This document shows positions 1,965-21,684 of a stretch of DNA of 23,582 nucleotides, piece by piece. A program made the translations under genes and the position numbers. This DNA is from a virus. A model generated the notes under the pieces. That model saw only the letters and a list, made by a program, of their open reading frames with translations. It had not been told where the DNA came from and searched no databases. The stretch is from positions 1-23,582 of IMG/VR virus record IMGVR_UViG_3300026518_000060; one strand, given 5' to 3'. The first letter of the stretch is position 1, and every line of letters begins with the position of its first letter.

Positions 1965-3350
1965 ATGAGTTTGCAGGAATATAGGGAGTTTATTGCGTCC
2001 CGTGGCGGCGTGGTTTCGGCAACGGGGATACCATCCAAAAATATGAACGAAAAAATGAAACGCCACCAGAAAGTAGCTGTTGAATATGCGCTTAATCGTG
2101 GCAAATCGGCCCTGTTTCTGGATACCGGCTTAGGTAAATCGCTTTGCGAGCTGGAATTTGCCAGACAGGTTTCTGAACACACGAATAAGCCGGTCCTGAT
2201 CCTGACGCCGCTTGCCGTTGCGGCGCAAATGGTTCGTGAAGGCCAGAAATTCGGTATTGAGGCGAGACAAATACGCGACCAATCAGAAGTCGGTGCTGGT
2301 ATTATGGTCGCAAATTACGAGCGCCTGAAAAACCTTGACCCATTCTGTTTCGGTGGGGTTGTGCTGGATGAAAGCAGCATATTGAAATCGTTTGCCGGGA
2401 AAACTCGGGGGGTCTTGCTTGAATCGTTCATTGACACCGAGTTTCGCCTTGCCGCGACCGCGACACCATCGCCGAATGACCATACCGAATTGGGAAATCA
2501 TGCAGAATTTCTCGGGATCATGCGCCAGCAGGAAATGCTTTCGAAGTGGTTTATCAATGATACCAGCACTGCAAGTCAGGATTGGCGGTTGAAGGGCCAT
2601 GCCGCTGATGATTTTTGGGCGTGGGTTTCGAGTTGGTCCAGATGCGCTACGTTGCCAAGCGATTTGGGCGGCGACGACGCCGGATATATATTGCCTGAAA
2701 TTGACCGGCGCATTCATGTTGTCAAAGCCGACCGGCAGACTGATGTTGATGATGGAATGCTGTTTCGTATTCCGGAAATGTCGGCAACCAGTTTCCACAA
2801 GGAAAAGCGCCTGACCATTAAACAGAGATGCGAAAAGGCGGCTGAATTGGCAACGCATGATCGCCCGGTGACTGTGTGGTGCGAGACAAATGACGAAAGC
2901 GCCATATTGTCGAAAATGATACCTGACGCGGTTGAGGTCAGCGGCAGCATGAGCGCGGATGAAAAAGAGCGCCGGTTGCTCGGATTTGTTGACGGTGATT
3001 TTCGCGTCATTGTCACCAAGCCGAAGCTCGCAGGTCACGGCGTGAATTGGCAGCATTGTTCGCACGCGGTTTTTGCGTCAATCTCATTCAGCTATGAGCA
3101 ACACTATCAGGCAGCGCGCCGGTCTCATCGGTTTGGGCAAACTGAAAACGTCAGAAATGATATCATAATTTCAGATACCGAGGCGAGTATCTGGAATGCC
3201 GTCAACACAAAGGCCGAAAAACACGCCGAGATGAAACGGCGTATGGCAGAAGCGATGAAGCAATTCCAATCCGGCGCTGATGTTCGCGTCAAATATGACA
3301 GGCCGCTTGATCTGGCGTTTCCTGAATGGCTAAAGGGAGATAAAAAATGA
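1965..3350 (+). CDS. SNF2-type superfamily II DNA helicase/ATPase
   Basis: The 461-residue protein has the SF2 motifs in order: a Q-like RHQ (33-35), Walker A DTGLGKS (53-59), motif II DESS (135-138) in place of DEAH, motif III TATP (165-168), motif V around GHGVNWQ (357-363) and motif VI ARRSHRFGQ (384-392). The last motif and the compact layout match the SNF2/DEAD-like helicases common in phages. ATP-driven DNA translocation or remodelling is expected; a direct part in replication or in protecting DNA is not proven. The stop overlaps the start of the methyltransferase gene by 4 bases, which suggests the two products are made together. Confidence 0.88.
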   Translation: MSLQEYREFIASRGGVVSATGIPSKNMNEKMKRHQKVAVEYALNRGKSALFLDTGLGKSLCELEFARQVSEHTNKPVLILTPLAVAAQMVREGQKFGIEARQIRDQSEVGAGIMVANYERLKNLDPFCFGGVVLDESSILKSFAGKTRGVLLESFIDTEFRLAATATPSPNDHTELGNHAEFLGIMRQQEMLSKWFINDTSTASQDWRLKGHAADDFWAWVSSWSRCATLPSDLGGDDAGYILPEIDRRIHVVKADRQTDVDDGMLFRIPEMSATSFHKEKRLTIKQRCEKAAELATHDRPVTVWCETNDESAILSKMIPDAVEVSGSMSADEKERRLLGFVDGDFRVIVTKPKLAGHGVNWQHCSHAVFASISFSYEQHYQAARRSHRFGQTENVRNDIIISDTEASIWNAVNTKAEKHAEMKRRMAEAMKQFQSGADVRVKYDRPLDLAFPEWLKGDKK

Positions 3351-4327
3351 AACAACCGGAATATCAAGGTGAAGGATGGGCAATCCACAATTCCGATTGC
3401 GTCGAGGGGATGCACGCCATGCCCGAACAATCCGTTGATTGCGCCATATTTTCCCCGCCGTTCGGGGATCTGTTTGTGTATTCCGACAGCGAGCGAGATC
3501 TTGGAAATTCCGGCGAAGGCGATGCGTTTTTTGAGCAATACCGATTTTTTGCAGAGGCGTTAACCCGCGTTATGAAGCCGGGCCGGATTGTCTGTTGTCA
3601 TTGCACCGATCTACCGATGCGAAAAGGCAAACATGGGCATATTGGTTTGCAGGATTTTTCCGGCGCATTGATCAAAGCGCACACGGACGCCGGTTTGATT
3701 TACCACGGGCGCGCGACAATCTGGAAAGATCCGGTTGTTGAAATGCAGCGGACAAAGGCGCTTGGATTGCTTTACAAGCAAATCAGAAAAGACAGCGCAA
3801 TGAACCGCGTCGGGATGCCCGATTACATGCTGTTTTTCCGCGCCAAGGGGGATAACCCAGACAGGATCGAACACGCTGCACCCGGAGACATGAAAGAGGC
3901 TATCCGAATTGCCCGTGAATGGCTTGATGATTTACACCGGCATGGGCTTTGTGGTGACGTTCCAGATGATGACGCACTAGCGGAATTAATGACGCAGGCA
4001 CAATTTGACGTTTACGATTGGCAACAACTCGCAAGCCCTGTCTGGATGGATATTCGACAAGGGAACGTCCTGAACAAGATGAAGGCCGAGAACGACGAGC
4101 GCCATGTTTGCCCGCTGCAACTCGACGTGATCGACAGGTGCCTGCGCCTGTATTCGAAGCCGGGCGATGTTGTAATGGACCCATTCAACGGCATTGGATC
4201 AACCGGGTATCAGGCGGTCAAACAATTCCGCAGATACATCGGCTTTGAATTGAAGGAAGAATATGCCAAACAGGCAGGGAAAAATTTGAAAGCAGCGGAA
4301 CAATCAACCGCTGATCTATTTTCTTGA
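3347..4327 (+). CDS. Permuted DNA methyltransferase (N4-cytosine or N6-adenine)
   Basis: This 326-residue protein has the catalytic motif IV SPPF (36-39) near the N-terminus and the AdoMet-binding motif I DPFNGIGSTG (278-287) near the C-terminus. This is the permuted order of beta-type amino-methyltransferases. SPPF/SPPY-type motifs are most often found in N4-cytosine enzymes, but N6-adenine activity is possible. Between them lies the target-recognition region. No restriction endonuclease is encoded next door, so the enzyme is probably an orphan that protects phage DNA from host restriction or changes gene expression. The ATG overlaps the helicase stop (ATGA). A hairpin region follows the stop. 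Confidence 0.88.
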   Translation: MKQPEYQGEGWAIHNSDCVEGMHAMPEQSVDCAIFSPPFGDLFVYSDSERDLGNSGEGDAFFEQYRFFAEALTRVMKPGRIVCCHCTDLPMRKGKHGHIGLQDFSGALIKAHTDAGLIYHGRATIWKDPVVEMQRTKALGLLYKQIRKDSAMNRVGMPDYMLFFRAKGDNPDRIEHAAPGDMKEAIRIAREWLDDLHRHGLCGDVPDDDALAELMTQAQFDVYDWQQLASPVWMDIRQGNVLNKMKAENDERHVCPLQLDVIDRCLRLYSKPGDVVMDPFNGIGSTGYQAVKQFRRYIGFELKEEYAKQAGKNLKAAEQSTADLFS

Positions 4328-4412: not shown

Positions 4413-7076
4413 ATGAGCGAACCATATACTCCCGCCAACAATGATGCAACCATTGCCGATTTTGTTGATTTTTTGCGCCAAATGCAGATCGGTCCGGCGG
4501 ATCAGGCTGAAATCATCGACGATGACAAGCGGCACCGGTATCGCCTGATTGACGACAAACCCCGCGTGAAAACGGGTGTCTATCAGCTCAAGATCGAGCC
4601 GGACGGTTTTGCAGTGGGCTGGGCGTTGTCGTTTCGCGAGGGCGTGACACACGCATGGCACAGTAAGTCAACGCGCAAGGCCAGCCCCGAACAACGCGCC
4701 GAGTGGAAACGCAAACAGGCGGCAGCGAAAAAACAACGCGCGGCGGAAATAACCGCTCTGGCGAAAAAGGCCGCTGCCAAGGCCACACGCATCTGGTCGC
4801 AGGCATCCACGACAGGCACCACAGAATACCTCGACCGCAAGCAATGCGATCTGAATGGCGCGCGGATATGGCGGGATATGGTCGTGGTGCCGATGTATTC
4901 ATCGCGCGGGGGCATGGCTGGACTGCAATTCATATCTGGTGACGGGGCAAAACGGTTTATCACCGGATCGGCCAAGGAGGGCAGCTATTTCCCGATCACG
5001 ACCCGCGACGAGGCGCGCGACACAATCGTAATCTGCGAGGGGTTTGCGACCGGCGCGGCGATCAGGGCCGCAACAGAATGGCCGGTGGTGGTGGCGTTTG
5101 ACGCTGGCAACCTGAAACCTGTCGCCAAGGCCATGCACCGAAAATATCCTGATGCGCGGATAATCATCGGCGCTGACAACGACCAGTGGACAGCCAAGCA
5201 GGACGGCAGCGACTGGAACCCCGGCATCGAGAAGGCCAACCAAGCCGCCGTTGCAATCGGTGGCGCGCAGGTGATTTACCCGATCATTGACCCGCTAGAT
5301 CCCGATCACCGGACCGATTGGGATGATGTTTACCGCACCGATGGGCGGGAGGCAGTGCGCGATGCGTTTCTGACACCACCAGCGCCCGAGATAGACATGC
5401 CGGATGAACCGCCAATGCCGGAATACGATATTGGCGTTGAGGATGACAGCCTCGCCGCAATCCGACCGCTTGGGCACAATCGCGGGCTATATTCGTTTTT
5501 CCCGCGCGCGGCCGGGCAGATCGTCACGCTGTCGGCAACGTCAATGGGCAGGATGCAGTCGCTCTATATGTTGGCCCCGCGCCCGTTCTGGGAGCGGCAC
5601 TATGGCGGCGATAAAATATCAGACAGCCAGATATGCGCCTATGCAAGCGCGCACCTGATGCAGGCGTGTCACGACGCGGGGATATTCCAGCGCGAAACCA
5701 CACGCGGCGTCGGTGCGTGGATCGATGGCGGCAAACCGATTATGAATTGCGGTGATGTTGTGGTCGGCGATGGGATCAGCGAGCACCCGGCCATGTTCCG
5801 CGGCGAGGCGGTTTATGAGAGTGGACCCCGCGTTGTGCATCCCGCCGGTGACTGCCTGTGCAACACCGATGCAGCGAAGGTGCTGGATCTGATAAAACGG
5901 CTGCAATGGAAGCGCGGCCAGTTTGCGTATCTATTGGCGGGATGGCTGGTGATCGCGCCGGTCGGTGGTGCGCTGACATGGCGTCCGCACATATGGCTGA
6001 CTGGTAAATCGGGCGTCGGCAAATCCAGCATAATATCCGAGGTGATTAAAAAACTGCTTGGCGAAATCGGGCTGTATACCGAGGGATCGACTGAGGCGCG
6101 CGTCAGGGGCATGGTTGAGCAATCAACGCGCCCGGTTGTGATTGACGAGGCCGAGAGCGAAACGGCGCGGGCCAGAGATGAAATTCAGAAGATCATAAAT
6201 TTCGCGCGCAAATGCTCCAGCGGCGGGATCGTCTCAAACGCCAACGCCAGCTATAGGGCGCAAAGCTGTTTTTGTTTCGCGGCGATAAACCCTGCTGTTG
6301 AACAGTTGGCAGACACCGCGCGGATCAGCATTTTGGAGTTATCCCGCGATACCAGATCGGATCGACTGCGGGAATGGACGTCGCTGCTGAGCGATATGCG
6401 CGAGACATTTACCGCCGAATATGCGCGGGAATTACAGTCTCGCACCATGCAAAACCTGCCGACGCTGCTGGAAAACGTGAAAACATTCACGCGGGTTGCG
6501 GCTATAATGTTTGGCGATGCTCGGGCGGCTGATCAGCTTGGCCCGATGATTGCTGGAGCGTTTAGCCTCACCAGCACAAAGCGGATCACCGATGAGGCGG
6601 CGCGGGAATGGATGCAGCGGCAGGATTGGGAGTGGCACACGCAGACACGCGAGACCGAGGATTGCACGGTGTTGCTGTCATACATCATGACCAGCCGCGT
6701 GAGATACGACAATCAGGGAATTACCCGCGAAAGCACCATCGGAGACATGGTGGAACTCGCCGCCGACCAGATCCGAGACGGGCAAGAGGCGGCGATGAAC
6801 GGCCTGAAATCATACGGCATCAAGGTCGTGGCTGGGCGGATATATATCAGCAACACGGCGATGCAGCTCAAGAAATTGTTGCGCGACACGCCATATATCC
6901 CGTGGGCGCGAACGCTGGCAGAGATCAATGGCGCGAAACCTGAGCCGCCGACGTATTTTATGCCGGGCCTCACCTCGCGCGCCGTGTCGATCCCGATGGC
7001 GGCAATATCAGGCGCGGCACCACAAGCGCTACCAGAGGATGAGGAATTGTCATTCGATAGTGGGGATTTTGCGTGA
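4413..7076 (+). CDS. Replicative primase/helicase with Toprim and P-loop ATPase domains
   Basis: An 887-residue multidomain protein. The N-terminal part (about 1-200) is followed by a Toprim domain with IVICEGFATG (205-214; E209) and GADND (253-257; D255, D257). A helicase-like ATPase carries Walker A GKSGVGKS (531-538), Walker B PVVIDEAES (574-582; D578, E579) and a sensor-like stretch CFAAINPA (621-628). This arrangement resembles phage and plasmid primase-helicases of the DUF927/DUF3987 type. It is expected to unwind DNA and make primers at the fork. I saw no Cys-rich N-terminal zinc ribbon. The start is supported by AAGGGA about ten bases upstream. The stop overlaps the dcm-like start (ATGA). 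No polymerase gene is in the window. Confidence 0.88.
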   Translation: MSEPYTPANNDATIADFVDFLRQMQIGPADQAEIIDDDKRHRYRLIDDKPRVKTGVYQLKIEPDGFAVGWALSFREGVTHAWHSKSTRKASPEQRAEWKRKQAAAKKQRAAEITALAKKAAAKATRIWSQASTTGTTEYLDRKQCDLNGARIWRDMVVVPMYSSRGGMAGLQFISGDGAKRFITGSAKEGSYFPITTRDEARDTIVICEGFATGAAIRAATEWPVVVAFDAGNLKPVAKAMHRKYPDARIIIGADNDQWTAKQDGSDWNPGIEKANQAAVAIGGAQVIYPIIDPLDPDHRTDWDDVYRTDGREAVRDAFLTPPAPEIDMPDEPPMPEYDIGVEDDSLAAIRPLGHNRGLYSFFPRAAGQIVTLSATSMGRMQSLYMLAPRPFWERHYGGDKISDSQICAYASAHLMQACHDAGIFQRETTRGVGAWIDGGKPIMNCGDVVVGDGISEHPAMFRGEAVYESGPRVVHPAGDCLCNTDAAKVLDLIKRLQWKRGQFAYLLAGWLVIAPVGGALTWRPHIWLTGKSGVGKSSIISEVIKKLLGEIGLYTEGSTEARVRGMVEQSTRPVVIDEAESETARARDEIQKIINFARKCSSGGIVSNANASYRAQSCFCFAAINPAVEQLADTARISILELSRDTRSDRLREWTSLLSDMRETFTAEYARELQSRTMQNLPTLLENVKTFTRVAAIMFGDARAADQLGPMIAGAFSLTSTKRITDEAAREWMQRQDWEWHTQTRETEDCTVLLSYIMTSRVRYDNQGITRESTIGDMVELAADQIRDGQEAAMNGLKSYGIKVVAGRIYISNTAMQLKKLLRDTPYIPWARTLAEINGAKPEPPTYFMPGLTSRAVSIPMAAISGAAPQALPEDEELSFDSGDFA

Positions 7077-7924
7077 TGAAAAAATTGCGCGTGTTAGATT
7101 TATTCTCGGGCATCGGCGGTTTCAGCCTCGGGCTTGAGCGAACCGGTGGGTTTGAAACCGTGGCGTTTTGCGAGATCGAGCCATTCCCTCGCGCCGTATT
7201 GAAAAAACATTGGCCGGAGGTGCCATGCTATGAAGACGTTAGAACACTCACAGGCGCCGACGTCGGCCCAGTTGACGTTATTTGCGGAGGATTCCCATGC
7301 CAGGACATATCGACGGCAGGAAAACAAGTCGGAATCGGGGCTGGAACACGCAGCGGGTTATGGTCCGAAATCGTTAGGCTTGTTGGCGAATTACGACCGC
7401 GCTACGTCCTCGTGGAGAACGTTGCAAACCTGCTTTCTGGCCCAACTGAAAAACGAGGCGGGTGGTTCGGCAGAATACTTGGAGACTTGGCCGAGTGCGG
7501 GTATGATGCGGAATGGCAAAACATACCGGCTAGAGCCTTGGGCGCGCCACACCTTAGAGAAAGGGTCTGGATTGTTGCCTACCCCGCGCAAGAACGACAG
7601 CCAGAAACGGGGGAATTTCAATATCCACGAATCTCGCAATGGCTTCCCAGCAGGCGTGAAGCGTTTATTTTTGCCCACAATCGGAAAGAACGAGCCGAAG
7701 GGGTCGAGCAAAAAACGGTTTCGGGGTTCGGCGCATTTTCGTGGTGCCAAAATGTCGGAAGGGTTGAGGATTTGCGAGAACGATCCGATATACCTACACC
7801 CCTCTTTCGCGGAAGCCGTGATGGGATTCCCGATTGGGTGGACCGAGTTGGGTGCTGCGGAAACGCAGTCGTCCCGCAAATCCCCGAAATGATCGGGCTG
7901 GCAATTCTTGAGGCCAACAAATGA
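7073..7924 (+). CDS. DNA (cytosine-5) methyltransferase
   Basis: This 283-residue enzyme has motif I DLFSGIGG (9-16), motif IV GGFPCQDIS (72-80) with catalytic Cys76, motif VI ENV (115-117), a motif VIII-like ALGAPHLRERVW (155-166) and motif X GNAVVPQ (263-269). It should transfer methyl from AdoMet to carbon 5 of cytosine. It is shorter than most such enzymes, mainly in the target-recognition region (about 170-255). The start forms ATGA with the primase stop, and its stop forms ATGA with the next helicase start. From 7230 to 7892 the same DNA carries a second ORF in the +1 frame. In that region the methyltransferase frame uses many AGA, GGA and ATA codons that are rarer in neighbouring genes, as expected if both frames are constrained. 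Confidence 0.92.
   Translation: MMKKLRVLDLFSGIGGFSLGLERTGGFETVAFCEIEPFPRAVLKKHWPEVPCYEDVRTLTGADVGPVDVICGGFPCQDISTAGKQVGIGAGTRSGLWSEIVRLVGELRPRYVLVENVANLLSGPTEKRGGWFGRILGDLAECGYDAEWQNIPARALGAPHLRERVWIVAYPAQERQPETGEFQYPRISQWLPSRREAFIFAHNRKERAEGVEQKTVSGFGAFSWCQNVGRVEDLRERSDIPTPLFRGSRDGIPDWVDRVGCCGNAVVPQIPEMIGLAILEANK
7216..7220 (+). promoter_or_regulatory. Shine-Dalgarno site of the nested gene
   Basis: GGAGG lies inside the methyltransferase gene, 9 bases before the ATG at 7230. This is a strong site at good spacing and decides the start of the nested ORF. The same bases encode part of the conserved HWPEVP stretch of the methyltransferase, so the match could partly reflect that protein's sequence. 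Confidence 0.55.
7230..7892 (+). CDS. Gene nested in the methyltransferase gene, +1 frame; methylase-associated phage protein
   Basis: A 220-codon ORF lies entirely within the cytosine-5 methyltransferase gene, shifted by one base. It begins 9 bases after GGAGG. Its product reads like a real protein, not a shadow: it has YDRATSSWRTLQTCFLAQL (55-73), YLETWPSAGMMRNGKTYRL (83-101), LLPTPRKND (115-123), GAKMSEGLR (172-180) and a C-terminal PSFAEAVMGFPIGWTEL (191-207). From memory, proteins with SSWRT...TWPxSGxMRNG...LLPTP...MGFPxGWT motifs recur in phages beside or within cytosine methyltransferase genes; I could not confirm this by search. The biochemical role is unknown. It might assist target recognition, or be a remnant or alternate product of the methylase. 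The family resemblance is recalled, while the open frame and ribosome-binding site are seen. Confidence 0.68.
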   Translation: MKTLEHSQAPTSAQLTLFAEDSHARTYRRQENKSESGLEHAAGYGPKSLGLLANYDRATSSWRTLQTCFLAQLKNEAGGSAEYLETWPSAGMMRNGKTYRLEPWARHTLEKGSGLLPTPRKNDSQKRGNFNIHESRNGFPAGVKRLFLPTIGKNEPKGSSKKRFRGSAHFRGAKMSEGLRICENDPIYLHPSFAEAVMGFPIGWTELGAAETQSSRKSPK

Positions 7925-9315
7925 TCACCCTATACCCAGATCAGGCCGACCTCGTTGAGCGCATCCGCATCGCCATGCGCCGCAATAAATCGGTGTTGTG
8001 CCAAGCCGCGACGGGGTCGGGCAAGACAATCCTCGCCGCATATATGATCAGCAAGGCGCGTGAAAAACGCACCCGATGCATGTTTGTCGTGCCGCGTCGT
8101 GAGCTGTTGCGCCAGACAGCCGAGACGCTGGATAGCTACGGCATCCCGTTTGGCTATGTCAGCGCCGGATATGCCCCCGATGGACTGGCAGATATTCAGG
8201 TCGCCACGTCCGGCACATTGGCGCGCAGGCTGGACCGATCGCCGAAATCGCGGTTGGTATTTATCGACGAGACACACCACGGCGGCGCAGAACTGGAGCG
8301 CATCATCCGGCATTATCAGGACGCCGGTGCATGGATTATCGGGCTATCGGCGACACCCATGAAAATGTCAGGCAAGGGGCTTGGCGACTGGTATCAGACG
8401 ATGGAGTGCGGCCTGAGCATCGCCGATCTGATTGCGGCTGGGCGACTGTCCGAATACCGCCTATTTGCCCCCTCACGCCCCGATCTGAGCGGCATCAGGA
8501 CGGTTGCGGGCGATTATGCCAAAGGCGCGATTGCCGACCGCATGGAGCAGGATATGGTGCTGACCGGCAACGCGGTCCGGCACTATATCGCCCACGCAAA
8601 CGGGCGGCTGAATGTGGCATTTTGCACCAGCGTCAAACACTCCGAATTGGTGGCGGCTGAATTTAACGCGCAGGGTGTTCCAGCGGCGGCAATCCACGGG
8701 AAAATGAACGACGCAGAACGGTCCGCGATTATCAAAGCGTTTGCGCGGCGGGAATTGCACGTCCTGACGAATTGCAGCCTGCTGACGTTTGGTTTCGACC
8801 TTGCCAGCGCGGCGGGGATGGATGTCACGGTTGAGTGCATGTCCGACCTATCCCCGACGAAATCGCTCCCTTGGCAGATGCAGAAATGGGGTCGCGTGTT
8901 GCGCCGGAAATCGGAACCGGCGATTATATTTGACCATGCGGGCAACGTGGACCGCCACGATCTGCCCGATGATGACCGCGATTGGACGCTTGATGGACGC
9001 CGGAAACGCGCATCCACGGGCGAAAAAACCGAGCCTGTCCGTCAATGCCCGAAATGCTATTTTGTCCATCGCCACGCCGCTGCTTGCCCATCTTGCGGAT
9101 TTGTATACCCTATCGAGAGCCGCACCGTGAAGCAGGTCGATGGCGAACTGGCAGAAATCACCGAGCGCAACCGGAAACGCGACGCCAGACGCGCTCAGGG
9201 ACGCGCTGACAGCCTTGACGCGCTCTTGGCACTAGCGGCACGGACAGGGAGGAAACCGGGCTGGGCGCATCATGTGTGGGCCGCGAGACAGGCGAAACGA
9301 CATGCTGGGGCCTGA
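7921..9315 (+). CDS. DEAD/DEAH-type superfamily II helicase with C-terminal zinc ribbon
   Basis: The 464-residue protein has Walker A AATGSGKT (29-36), motif II DETH (116-119), motif III SAT (143-145) and motif VI QKWGRVLRR (321-329). A four-Cys zinc ribbon, CPKC...CPSC (376, 379, 389, 392), follows the helicase core. The architecture resembles RadD/type III restriction-like SF2 helicases that many phages carry. It probably acts in DNA repair, recombination or replication restart. The ATG overlaps the methyltransferase stop by 4 bases. It is the second SF2 helicase in the window and is clearly different from the SNF2-type one at 1965. The C-terminal tail is basic and Arg-rich, consistent with nucleic-acid contact. 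Confidence 0.9.
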   Translation: MITLYPDQADLVERIRIAMRRNKSVLCQAATGSGKTILAAYMISKAREKRTRCMFVVPRRELLRQTAETLDSYGIPFGYVSAGYAPDGLADIQVATSGTLARRLDRSPKSRLVFIDETHHGGAELERIIRHYQDAGAWIIGLSATPMKMSGKGLGDWYQTMECGLSIADLIAAGRLSEYRLFAPSRPDLSGIRTVAGDYAKGAIADRMEQDMVLTGNAVRHYIAHANGRLNVAFCTSVKHSELVAAEFNAQGVPAAAIHGKMNDAERSAIIKAFARRELHVLTNCSLLTFGFDLASAAGMDVTVECMSDLSPTKSLPWQMQKWGRVLRRKSEPAIIFDHAGNVDRHDLPDDDRDWTLDGRRKRASTGEKTEPVRQCPKCYFVHRHAAACPSCGFVYPIESRTVKQVDGELAEITERNRKRDARRAQGRADSLDALLALAARTGRKPGWAHHVWAARQAKRHAGA

Positions 9316-15721: not shown

Positions 15722-15933
15722 CCGTCCACCCCCACATCCTCACACGTCACTTTGGCCCACTCCAGCGTGGCACCTTTCGCTTTGAGTATATCCCCCAGCG
15801 CATAAATATTCAGATCCCGCCGCACCTTGCACTCGGCAAGTGTTGGCGATGATCGCTCCTGCACGAACGATTTGCATTGCAGCGGCCCGCCATTGACTGT
15901 GGCGCAAAACGAGACAATAAGAATAAACATCAC
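15718..15933 (-). CDS. Small secreted protein with Cys residues
   Basis: A 71-residue protein that starts with the hydrophobic MMFILIVSFCATVNG, which is probably a signal peptide, followed by a short region with three Cys (C20, C35, C64). It lies between the endolysin and holin candidate genes and overlaps both by 4 bases. It could be part of the lysis system, for example an outer-membrane spanin component, but I see neither a clear lipobox nor a Pro-rich tail. The function is otherwise unknown. Confidence 0.6.
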   Translation of the reverse strand: MMFILIVSFCATVNGGPLQCKSFVQERSSPTLAECKVRRDLNIYALGDILKAKGATLEWAKVTCEDVGVDG

Positions 15934-16697
15934 CCTGCCCCCCGCCGAACCAGCATAATCACTCCGCCAACAGCGGCCAGCACCAGTACTGCCGCCAACG
16001 CATACTGAACCGGCCCTGAGCCACTCGAAACCGCCGCCACAGAGCCAAGCGCACCGCCAACTGCAGTTATTGCCTGCGGATTCTTGAGGGCATCAGCGAT
16101 CACCGCTGAGGCTTTCACAGGGCCAGCCGCTTTGCCCTGTCCAGCTTTCGCCGGGGCGATCAGCATAGCCGCGTCGGTGTTTTCCTGCGCCATTGCCATG
16201 CTGGCATTTTTCACTCTGGAAATACGGACTTCCCAACCTTTGCCGAATACCCGATACGTCCGCAGCCGACGCACGAACGCAAATCGTTTGTCGCACAGGC
16301 GATCAATCAACTGCACCGAGCCGAAGCCCACGATTGCCGTGAGAGTGACTTGCCCCATGACGCCATCCACCGGAACTCCAACAATCTCTTGCGCGAATTT
16401 CACAGCCCGATGAACCCCGCTATTTACGGCAAAATCCAGCACGGCATAATCGACGCCGCTGGGTAGATCGTCGCCCATCACCTTGTCCCAATACTGCGCC
16501 TTGTAAATCGCTTCGGCTTCCTGCCTCGTGATGTGCCGCACATCATTCTTCGGCTTTCCACGACGAGTGCGCCAAGCATCATAGACCCGCTGCGTCACGC
16601 CCTTGTTCGTCGGCCCGCCCGGATCGGCAGGGTGATTTACATACCCTCCCTCAGTCACTGCCAGCCACTTCAAAATCTGTTGCCAATTCTGTTTCAT
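15930..16697 (-). CDS. Endolysin, glycoside hydrolase family 108 type, with C-terminal membrane segment
   Basis: The 255-residue protein begins with the GH108 pattern: catalytic Glu16 in VTEGGYVNHPADPGGPTNKG. About residues 80-165 contain a peptidoglycan-binding-like region (VGVPVDGVMGQVTL; FVRRLRTYRVFGKGWEVRI). GH108 enzymes cut the glycan strand of peptidoglycan. The last 25 residues, VQYALAAVLVLAAVGGVIMLVRRG, form a membrane segment, as seen in several phages of proteobacteria. The protein has no N-terminal signal. Its neighbours are a coiled-coil membrane protein and a holin candidate, and both ends overlap them by 4 bases. Confidence 0.9.
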   Translation of the reverse strand: MKQNWQQILKWLAVTEGGYVNHPADPGGPTNKGVTQRVYDAWRTRRGKPKNDVRHITRQEAEAIYKAQYWDKVMGDDLPSGVDYAVLDFAVNSGVHRAVKFAQEIVGVPVDGVMGQVTLTAIVGFGSVQLIDRLCDKRFAFVRRLRTYRVFGKGWEVRISRVKNASMAMAQENTDAAMLIAPAKAGQGKAAGPVKASAVIADALKNPQAITAVGGALGSVAAVSSGSGPVQYALAAVLVLAAVGGVIMLVRRGAG

Positions 16698-18858: not shown

Positions 18859-21684
18859 TCACATCTCCACGAGAAGGCCGTTGTTTGCCGCTAGCTTGGT
18901 CACTGCGGTCGTGCTGTTGTCGATCCTGCGAAGCCCGTCAAAGGTGCTGCGCCCGCCGCTCGTCCCGACATGCAGCAGGCCCTTGATCTCGTCGTAGGCC
19001 ATATCGGTGACCGCATCAGACGAACCATAGAGGGTGCATTTGGCATTGTCTTGGAACAGCACCTTTTCGGTTTCGTAGATGTGCTTGATCTGGTCTGCCG
19101 AGGGGGCGGTTGCGCCGATGCGTAGAAGGGTGAGTTTTAGGGACGAGAGATCATTGTCATTGCCGATATAGAGGGGCTCACTTGCAGACGTGTCCGTAAA
19201 CGACATACCACCGGAGGATGTGCTTGCCTGCAACACCCCATCGACCCAAGCCTCCATTGTCCCAGACCGAACAGTGGCTACAAAAAACGTCCAGCGCCCG
19301 CGAATATCTCCGAACCCTACGCTCGTGAAAGGATGTGATCCGTCATCTGCACCGAAACGCATCCCAGAGGATCCAAGTGTAGCAATATCATAGTATCCTG
19401 TAGCCACTTGTCCGCGCTTCAAGATAGCATCCGTCGTTGAGTGACCAGACGGGATATAAACCCACCCCATGATACAGAAATCACCCGTCCCAAAGTCCAG
19501 ATCGGAGTTGTAGGGCTGCTGTAGGTAGTTCGTTGCAGAGAAACCGCTGTAGGCCACAAGGTCCGCGCCGGTTGCAACCGCTGTCTTGGTCAGGGAGCCG
19601 AACACCTGCAGGCCGTTACCTTTCACCGAGCGATCGGGGTCGGCTAGGCGGACGGATACGTTATCGAAGTCCATCGACACAGAAGATGTTGCTGTAAAAA
19701 CCTGTAACAAGATGTAGTGTGTCGCAGCTGTCGCCGTAAATGTGAGTTGCTGTGTTCCAGTTACAGCGGCGGCTTGAGAAACAGCAGTGTTAGGCGACGC
19801 AAAACCAGTCTCATCATCAACCACAACCCTCGTAGCATAAAGCGTCCCGGGGGCCGAAACATCCCACGATATAGTGTAGTCTTTACCCGGCACACAGGAA
19901 ACAGCTTGCCATGCAGAGCCATATCCACCAGAGCCATTGGTGATGCGCAGTCGGCCAGAAACGACCGATAGGGTCGCTGTCCCTCCTGCAGTCCATCCAG
20001 TCGTGCTGGTATCAAACGTCCCATTCGTGACCAGTTCAGCCCCGGTGATTGTCTCCGCCGTGGTGTCAGCGAGCCATGCTCCACGAATGTCGCCGGGCAT
20101 CCAACCTGACAGGTAGGTGGTGGTCAGGTAGTTGACCATGCCGGAGGCTGGGGTGGCGGGGTTGAAATTGTAAAGAGTCAAATGCTGCCCGTTGACCCCA
20201 GTTCCGGAGTTGGACGAGTTCAAAGTCAAAGCGGCAAGGGTTCCCACAATGGGTTTTGATTTCCCAGTATTATGACCTATATACGGGTAAGTCCCTCCGT
20301 AACCATGTATCCCTCCAAGATCAATCATTGAAGATGTAGTCATGTCAGTCGTGATGCTCGCCGTCTTAACGGCATAGTAATGCCCGTTGTCAGCCGAAAC
20401 AGCGCCCCAGTTCGCTATGATATATTCGCCGTGAAACGCCACTGTTCCCGATAGAGGCCACGATGCGTTTGTCAAATCCCAGACGTTCCCATCATCCTTG
20501 ATAACCGACACGCCCCCGTCAGTCGCCACGGCAATCGTGGGCACAGGCATACCCGTGGCAGGGTCGATTGGTGCGTCGGGGAGGGCTGTTATGGCTACGT
20601 CGTTGACATATTGGCTCACTACATTCGGGGCATTAGGTGCCGCACTAAGCCCGTCATTTCGTTGTGCAATATTTCCGTTATACGGAACATTCCTGAGATC
20701 ACGCGGCATATCCTTCCCATCCAAGAGGAAGTTAAACGTGCCGCCAGCAAAGTTATTATTGTCGCAAAAAACAAGAGTTCCATCATAAAAGGCGATTGAG
20801 GACACATCACCATTTGTCCTAAGCATATTTACATTAGCGCCAACAAACACCATCCACATCGGCAGGTCAGGATCGGTCGCGTCGAAGATAATCACCCTCG
20901 AAGCCTCGGCCACCACCACATATTCCTCGGGGAACCCGGCCTTGTTGCCACGAAACACCTCGGTCTGCCCCGAAGTTGCGTTCAGTGAATAAAACTTCCC
21001 GTCGGTCGTGTTGTGATAGTAGGAACCTGTCCCTGCGCCCGAGATCACCCGAGCAGCAGTCTCGTCCGCCGCTTCGCCAAGCCAATTACCAGACACGAGG
21101 GTTTCATTATACCAGCTCGTGCGGGGCTGGATCACACGCATGTTGAAGCCGCCGTCAGACCAGTCTGCCATACGGCCCACCACCACATCCACGGGGGTGT
21201 AATTCGAAAGCGTCACGGCATAGGCGGAAAGGTCTTGCTGCACCACAGAGGCGGCAGACGCGGCACTTGCGGCCGAGGCGTTGGCCCAGCCTTCGGCTTC
21301 TGTTGCACTAGTTGCGGCATCTGTCGCGCTTGCTGCGGCGGCGTCACGCGCTGCCTGCGCATCGAGGACGGCCTGCGGGGTCACTGTGGTCGGCGCGGCG
21401 TCGATCATAACGTCAAGCGTATTTGTCAGTGGCGTTTCCGGCACCGCAACAGAGAACTCAACCGTGCCGCTGTCAGCGCCAATCGTGGTCGCTGTGTAAT
21501 TACCCGCGAACATGCTGAATGACACCACACCCGAGGCGTCCGACGTGGTGGTTACCGTTCGCGGAACAACAACAGAACTGTCCTGCCCGGCCACGCCGCT
21601 GCGAACGAACGTCACCTGCGTATTCGGCAGGACATTGCCTTGCAGGTCTTTCAATGTGCCGGTGATTGCGATTAGCGTTGACAT
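18859..21684 (-). CDS. Large tail fibre with carbohydrate-binding-like and lectin-like regions
   Basis: This 941-residue protein is the likely host-recognition fibre. Residues 1-90 look like an Ig-like or carboxypeptidase-regulatory-like domain (GTLKDLQGNVLPNTQV; SGVVSFSMFAGNYTAT). Residues about 105-150 are an Ala-rich coiled coil (AARDAAAASATDAATSATEA). About 255-545 may be a repeat-rich beta domain. About 549-680 match a CBM4/9-like carbohydrate module (NGTFDTSTTGWTAGG to MDFDNVSVRL). About 725-865 resemble a LamG/concanavalin-like lectin (DFCIMGWVYI; RWTFFVATVRSG; EAWVDGVL). AGGAGG precedes the ATG. The two sugar-binding-like regions suggest a polysaccharide receptor. Confidence 0.85.
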   Translation of the reverse strand: MSTLIAITGTLKDLQGNVLPNTQVTFVRSGVAGQDSSVVVPRTVTTTSDASGVVSFSMFAGNYTATTIGADSGTVEFSVAVPETPLTNTLDVMIDAAPTTVTPQAVLDAQAARDAAAASATDAATSATEAEGWANASAASAASAASVVQQDLSAYAVTLSNYTPVDVVVGRMADWSDGGFNMRVIQPRTSWYNETLVSGNWLGEAADETAARVISGAGTGSYYHNTTDGKFYSLNATSGQTEVFRGNKAGFPEEYVVVAEASRVIIFDATDPDLPMWMVFVGANVNMLRTNGDVSSIAFYDGTLVFCDNNNFAGGTFNFLLDGKDMPRDLRNVPYNGNIAQRNDGLSAAPNAPNVVSQYVNDVAITALPDAPIDPATGMPVPTIAVATDGGVSVIKDDGNVWDLTNASWPLSGTVAFHGEYIIANWGAVSADNGHYYAVKTASITTDMTTSSMIDLGGIHGYGGTYPYIGHNTGKSKPIVGTLAALTLNSSNSGTGVNGQHLTLYNFNPATPASGMVNYLTTTYLSGWMPGDIRGAWLADTTAETITGAELVTNGTFDTSTTGWTAGGTATLSVVSGRLRITNGSGGYGSAWQAVSCVPGKDYTISWDVSAPGTLYATRVVVDDETGFASPNTAVSQAAAVTGTQQLTFTATAATHYILLQVFTATSSVSMDFDNVSVRLADPDRSVKGNGLQVFGSLTKTAVATGADLVAYSGFSATNYLQQPYNSDLDFGTGDFCIMGWVYIPSGHSTTDAILKRGQVATGYYDIATLGSSGMRFGADDGSHPFTSVGFGDIRGRWTFFVATVRSGTMEAWVDGVLQASTSSGGMSFTDTSASEPLYIGNDNDLSSLKLTLLRIGATAPSADQIKHIYETEKVLFQDNAKCTLYGSSDAVTDMAYDEIKGLLHVGTSGGRSTFDGLRRIDNSTTAVTKLAANNGLLVEM

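Follow-up and report, generated by a model that had tools for sequence, protein, structure and literature searches.

A gene nested in a phage methylase probably encodes the DNA-recognising subunit of the same C5-cytosine methyltransferase

The window, i.e., the whole stretch of 23,582 nucleotides of viral DNA that we analyzed (IMG/VR record IMGVR_UViG_3300026518_000060), very probably encodes a C5-cytosine DNA methyltransferase made of two polypeptides, alpha and beta, whose genes overlap in different frames of the same DNA. Motifs I-VIII, for AdoMet binding and catalysis, and the closing motif X would be on alpha (7076-7924). Beta (7230-7892, in the +1 frame) would provide motif IX and, putatively, the target-recognition region. 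Beta is a real and conserved coding gene and, judging from its sequence, it most likely carries the DNA-recognising part of alpha's enzyme. It would be translated separately from an internal GGAGG and ATG, and would assemble with alpha into a heterodimer, thereby replacing the small DNA-recognising domain that alpha lacks. This heterodimer would bind a specific DNA site, with beta setting the specificity, and methylate cytosine. It would presumably modify the DNA of the phage itself, probably as a protection against host restriction.

The pair lies on the + strand among replication genes. The alpha ORF spans positions 7073-7924, with a likely start at ATG 7076 and an alternative GTG at 7073. 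The stop codon of the neighbouring primase (4413-7076) overlaps the ATG as TGATG, and two helicases (1965-3350 and 7921-9315) flank the region. Another DNA methyltransferase, of the N6/N4 type, is encoded around 2.7 kb upstream of alpha (3347-4327, +; PF01555, E 6.5e-22). Hence, the replication region of the phage contains two distinct modification enzymes, and this neighbourhood makes it likely that the pair modifies the phage's own DNA. Further along, the - strand encodes a 941-aa protein (18859-21684) whose C-terminal domain is Laminin_G_3 (concanavalin A-like) and which has no PHROG match. It is adjoined by a lysozyme-like Glyco_hydro_108 gene (15930-16697) and is possibly a tail or adhesion protein.

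Alpha is the large subunit of a C5-cytosine methyltransferase. It has motif I (LDLFSGIGGF, 7094-7123), motif IV with the catalytic cysteine (GGFPCQDIS, 7286-7312), motif VI (ENV, 7415-7423), and a motif VIII region (GAPHLRERVWIVA, 7541-7579); motifs IV and VI are invariant in 71 relatives. The protein matches PF00145 (E 2.4e-43) over profile positions 2-181 of 324 only, and M.HhaI by sequence (E 1e-19). The best structural matches of its AlphaFold2 model are also M.HhaI structures (about 172 aligned columns, E 3.6e-16). The catalytic domain (residues ~1-170) and the helix of motif X (GNAVVPQ, 7859-7879) are modelled with high confidence, and residues ~180-250 have a pLDDT mostly between 40 and 60. 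A motif-IX HMM built from 77 beta sequences failed to find this motif in the alpha of the window. Alpha thus lacks both motif IX and a folded recognition domain, and does not qualify as a single-chain enzyme with motifs I-X and the recognition domain on one polypeptide, since motif IX is missing and residues 180-249 are mostly disordered in the model and unconstrained. Substitutions and pLDDT identify the corresponding linker (7613-7822) as a shadow of the recognition region of beta.

The nested ORF starts with ATG and runs for 220 codons without a stop in the +1 frame relative to alpha, with a Shine-Dalgarno-like GGAGG (7216-7220) ending 9 nt ahead of the start; these elements, and the protein motifs quoted with them in a preliminary description of this DNA, are all present. 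Its first conserved block, SSWRTLQT (7407-7430), is dual-coded opposite motif VI of alpha and near-invariant in 77 relatives. It is followed by TWPSAGMMRNG (7485-7517), in which W87, P88, G91, M93, R94, and G96 are invariant in the same number of relatives. A variable region with LLPTP and LPTIG repeats (7572-7784) comes next, and is the probable target-recognition region according to substitution counts against the relative L001. Beta matches phrog_1008 (E 1e-23), whose family label is DNA methyltransferase, and has no sequence match in Pfam, NCBIfam, or the PDB. Modelled alone it folds poorly (mean pLDDT 61), and this low-confidence model had no significant Foldseek match in the PDB. Such a poor solo model would fit a subunit that folds on its partner but is no proof of one, and we regard these two results as uninformative, not as negative.

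The C-terminal block of beta, PIYLHPSFAEAVMGFPIGWTEL (7785-7850), is by sequence the motif IX of C5 methyltransferases. The motif-IX HMM matches mycobacteriophage TelAviv gp5 (2e-10) and Rabbitrun gp78 (3.5e-8) just ahead of their motif X, and aligns weakly with E. coli Dcm at PRRLTPRECARLMGF; the +1 frame of the Dcm gene has no beta (0.8 bits). In TelAviv gp5, the beta region, motif IX, and motif X are in one frame of one ORF, and the same is true of WalterMcMickey gp77, Jinkies gp3, and Poenanya gp74. Rabbitrun gp78 goes further, with motifs I-VIII, IX, and X on a single chain. Comparison of beta with these fused and single-chain relatives by hhalign gave a probability of 98.7% (E 2.7e-16). 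The distance from motif IX in beta to motif X in alpha is exactly 38 nt plus the frame change at 101 loci, and the spacing in the same-frame forms is mostly 66-69 nt. The presence of motif IX on beta, together with the one-frame forms of TelAviv and Rabbitrun, indicates that alpha and beta are probably two subunits of one methyltransferase. The functional tie to the methylase that was proposed in the preliminary description is borne out. Its idea of two separate conserved proteins that had been paired is not: beta holds the methylase's own motif IX and, putatively, its recognition region.

Some relatives have other arrangements. Motifs IX and X are inside the alpha ORF in phages Rabbitrun (L111:2224-3087), Deb65 (L112:1250-3274), and Filuzino (L124:885-2495), where +1 nonetheless retains an open and conserved front half of beta (TWPRxGxxRDG ... 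PTP). In a Desulfovibrio MAG (L050:707-1506), motifs I-IV of alpha share the frame of beta and the remainder of alpha is in the other frame; this is possibly a frameshifted copy, either decayed or mis-sequenced.

Could the two parts be joined during translation? Beta might be made mainly as a fusion, by programmed ribosomal frameshifting from alpha into +1, with motifs I-VIII, the recognition region, and motif IX on one chain. The frame of motifs IX and X differs between lineages of actinophages, so evolution does change frames within this enzyme. However, motif X sits in the alpha frame and would require a second shift back, and the conserved part of beta begins opposite motif VI, upstream of motif VIII, so that a shift would lose motifs VII-VIII. 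Moreover, an internal start in +1 with a Shine-Dalgarno-like site is present in the window and, at the corresponding place, in 46 of 71 relatives (using a loose pattern). We consider this fusion very unlikely. Marginally less credible still is that beta is an independent accessory protein, e.g., a regulator or an anti-restriction factor, which merely shares the locus of the methylase. The recognition region of beta has no sequence similarity to solved recognition domains, which counts against the two-subunit reading, and the front half of beta resembles no known recognition domain, which would suit an accessory protein. Yet, beta ends in the very motif IX that the methylase lacks and, in the TelAviv-type phages, continues in frame into motif X, which led us to reject an independent partner gene. 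Beta was also never found without alpha: we identified no stand-alone copy, and every homologue found sits +1 to an alpha. The preliminary description had counted an absence of homologues outside methyltransferase overlaps against the gene. This absence is what we observe, but the status of the gene stands, since a subunit may well exist only together with its partner.

The evidence that beta is a gene comes from relatives taken from viral contigs, phage records, plasmids, and genomes; the scan of viral contigs gave 401 relatives, the best 80 of which were kept. When 71 relatives were aligned by codons, 15 stops were counted in the +1 frame for 346 expected, a depletion that is decisive, whereas the +2 control frame has 614 for 580 expected. 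The 15 stops are in the first 9 codons, ahead of the local start of beta, or past motif IX, and the conserved body of beta has none. Third-position identity at the 4-fold sites of alpha is 0.34-0.38 outside the overlap, and rises to 0.74 where alpha overlaps the SSWRT segment and to 0.79 where it overlaps the C-terminal segment with motif IX. When the codons of the methylase were shuffled synonymously, the 220-codon frame stayed open in 0.4-0.7% of the trials, a result that for one gene alone is only suggestive of a real beta. The beta profile scored a median of 97 bits on codon-shuffled alphas and 241 bits on real genes. Since the shuffled sequences still reach such values, we dropped the ranking of members by this score alone.

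The pattern of substitutions completes this evidence and reveals that the constrained frame switches along the gene. Between the window and L001, codon changes in the alpha frame are mostly synonymous upstream of beta (27, against 5 non-synonymous). Across alpha residues 169-228, which form the recognition segment, this frame has 2 synonymous and 28 non-synonymous changes, as opposed to 21 and 6, respectively, in the beta frame. The ratio of non-synonymous to synonymous changes in alpha is around 13 across the recognition and motif IX segments together. More precisely, the alpha frame dominates in the first ~55 codons of beta, which are almost free in the beta frame. Both frames are constrained in the segment from SSWRT to LLPTP (~180 nt, opposite motifs VI-VIII), and beta is the constrained frame in the last part of the overlap, where alpha is the passenger. 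The selection on the nested frame that was anticipated in the preliminary description is thus confirmed by the stops, the 4-fold sites, and the substitutions. Its statement that the same DNA keeps motifs in both frames applies to the SSWRT-LLPTP segment and fails on either side, where the methylase frame (upstream) or the nested frame (downstream) prevails. For instance, a direct reading of the sequence reveals that the DGxPxRVDR of alpha, ahead of motif X, consists of the codons of the MGFPxGWTD of beta read one base earlier. The conserved-looking DGIPDWVDRV of alpha is, on this reading, an out-of-frame shadow of motif IX. The hypothesis that the ORF is not a gene and stays open only through methylase conservation and codon bias can be practically dismissed, since the ~0.5% of shuffles that leave the frame open and the part of the profile score that shuffled alphas retain are outweighed by the depletion of stops at 71 loci, the higher scores of real genes, and a recognition segment conserved in beta and unconstrained in alpha; we rejected a chance ORF on the stops and substitutions.

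The distribution of the pair is broad and covers many phyla. The beta profile matched 31 of the 398 Pseudomonadota genomes of an even draw, although the weakest of these matches are not secure because part of the score is induced by alpha. We rescanned 30 genomic loci and found both alpha and beta in 28, always with beta in the +1 frame of alpha; motif IX is visible in beta at roughly 20 of these 28. The sources include Pseudomonadota, Bacillota, actinobacteriophages, and MAGs of Planctomycetota, Gemmatimonadetes, and Acidobacteria, as well as plasmids or phages of Bacteroides, Leptospira, and Nostoc. With hundreds of loci found, this dual coding is not rare, contrary to what had been supposed. 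In one Pseudomonadota genome (L164:3577-4725, +), an ORF encoding a reverse transcriptase (RVT_1, E 4.2e-16) is directly upstream of the pair. Scans of selected neighbouring ORFs with Pfam and NCBIfam revealed no recognisable nuclease beside the genomic copies, and a link to restriction-modification is therefore not supported.

The nested-subunit arrangement is widespread and almost never annotated. Among the fully nested records that we read, the inner gene is annotated at full length in phage Lily only ('g62 internal gene'). In the Microcystis phage Mwe-JY08, the C-terminal part of beta is annotated as a hypothetical protein. As automatic annotation usually keeps the outer gene only, a frequent type of methyltransferase enters the records as one enzyme that lacks a recognition domain. 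Anyone who clones only alpha could wrongly conclude that it is an 'inactive orphan methylase', and a specificity predicted from alpha would rest on shadow sequence. The locus is also a clear natural example of dual coding on one strand, with the catalysis and the DNA recognition of one enzyme presumably divided between frames. A broader proposal, which we put forward as speculative and rather doubtful, is that two-frame coding is the long-standing normal form of a large family of C5 methyltransferases, where the front of the recognition subunit is kept in +1 and motifs IX and X move between frames by lineage. The overlap may then functionally lock the catalytic and specificity parts into a unit that recombination cannot split.

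How does this enzyme compare with known ones? M.HhaI and E. coli Dcm share the catalytic core and the type of motif IX with alpha and beta, but unlike the window they encode every motif and the recognition domain in a single frame. M.AquI (CYCGRG) is a two-polypeptide C5 methyltransferase split between motifs VIII and IX, a layout found in the relatives TelAviv and WalterMcMickey, where motifs IX and X are on the second ORF. The window differs from this type: its motif X, at 7859, belongs to the alpha frame, and the small gene lies entirely within the large one. The nested arrangement and the protein family of the window recur in Paenibacillus phage Lily (gp62/gp63). Its nested protein is divergent (29% identity to beta), and the record describes it as nested, not as a subunit. 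The small subunit of M.EcoHK31I is reportedly also encoded in an alternative frame inside the large one. A search of the window DNA against E. coli genomes gave no match. In working layout, the window comes close to M.EcoHK31I as described. M.EcoHK31I (YGGCCR) is a bacterial C5 methyltransferase of two polypeptides, and the arrangement was first described in 1995 (Lee, Kam and Shaw, cited in PMC3404938). According to the latter, motifs I-VIII and X are on its large subunit and motif IX is on the small one; it has been used as a 'naturally split' enzyme (PMC3439449). It belongs to a restriction-modification system, whereas no nuclease was identified at the window locus. The literature that we cite places its predicted target-recognition domain in the large subunit. 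In the window, on the contrary, the corresponding part of alpha is free of constraint, and the constrained sequence is found on beta. The window nevertheless resembles M.EcoHK31I in both defining respects: a large subunit with motifs I-VIII and X that is devoid of motif IX, and motif IX on a smaller polypeptide. Hence, the two-polypeptide kind was already known, and what is new is its breadth, the anatomy of the relay between frames, and the missing annotation.
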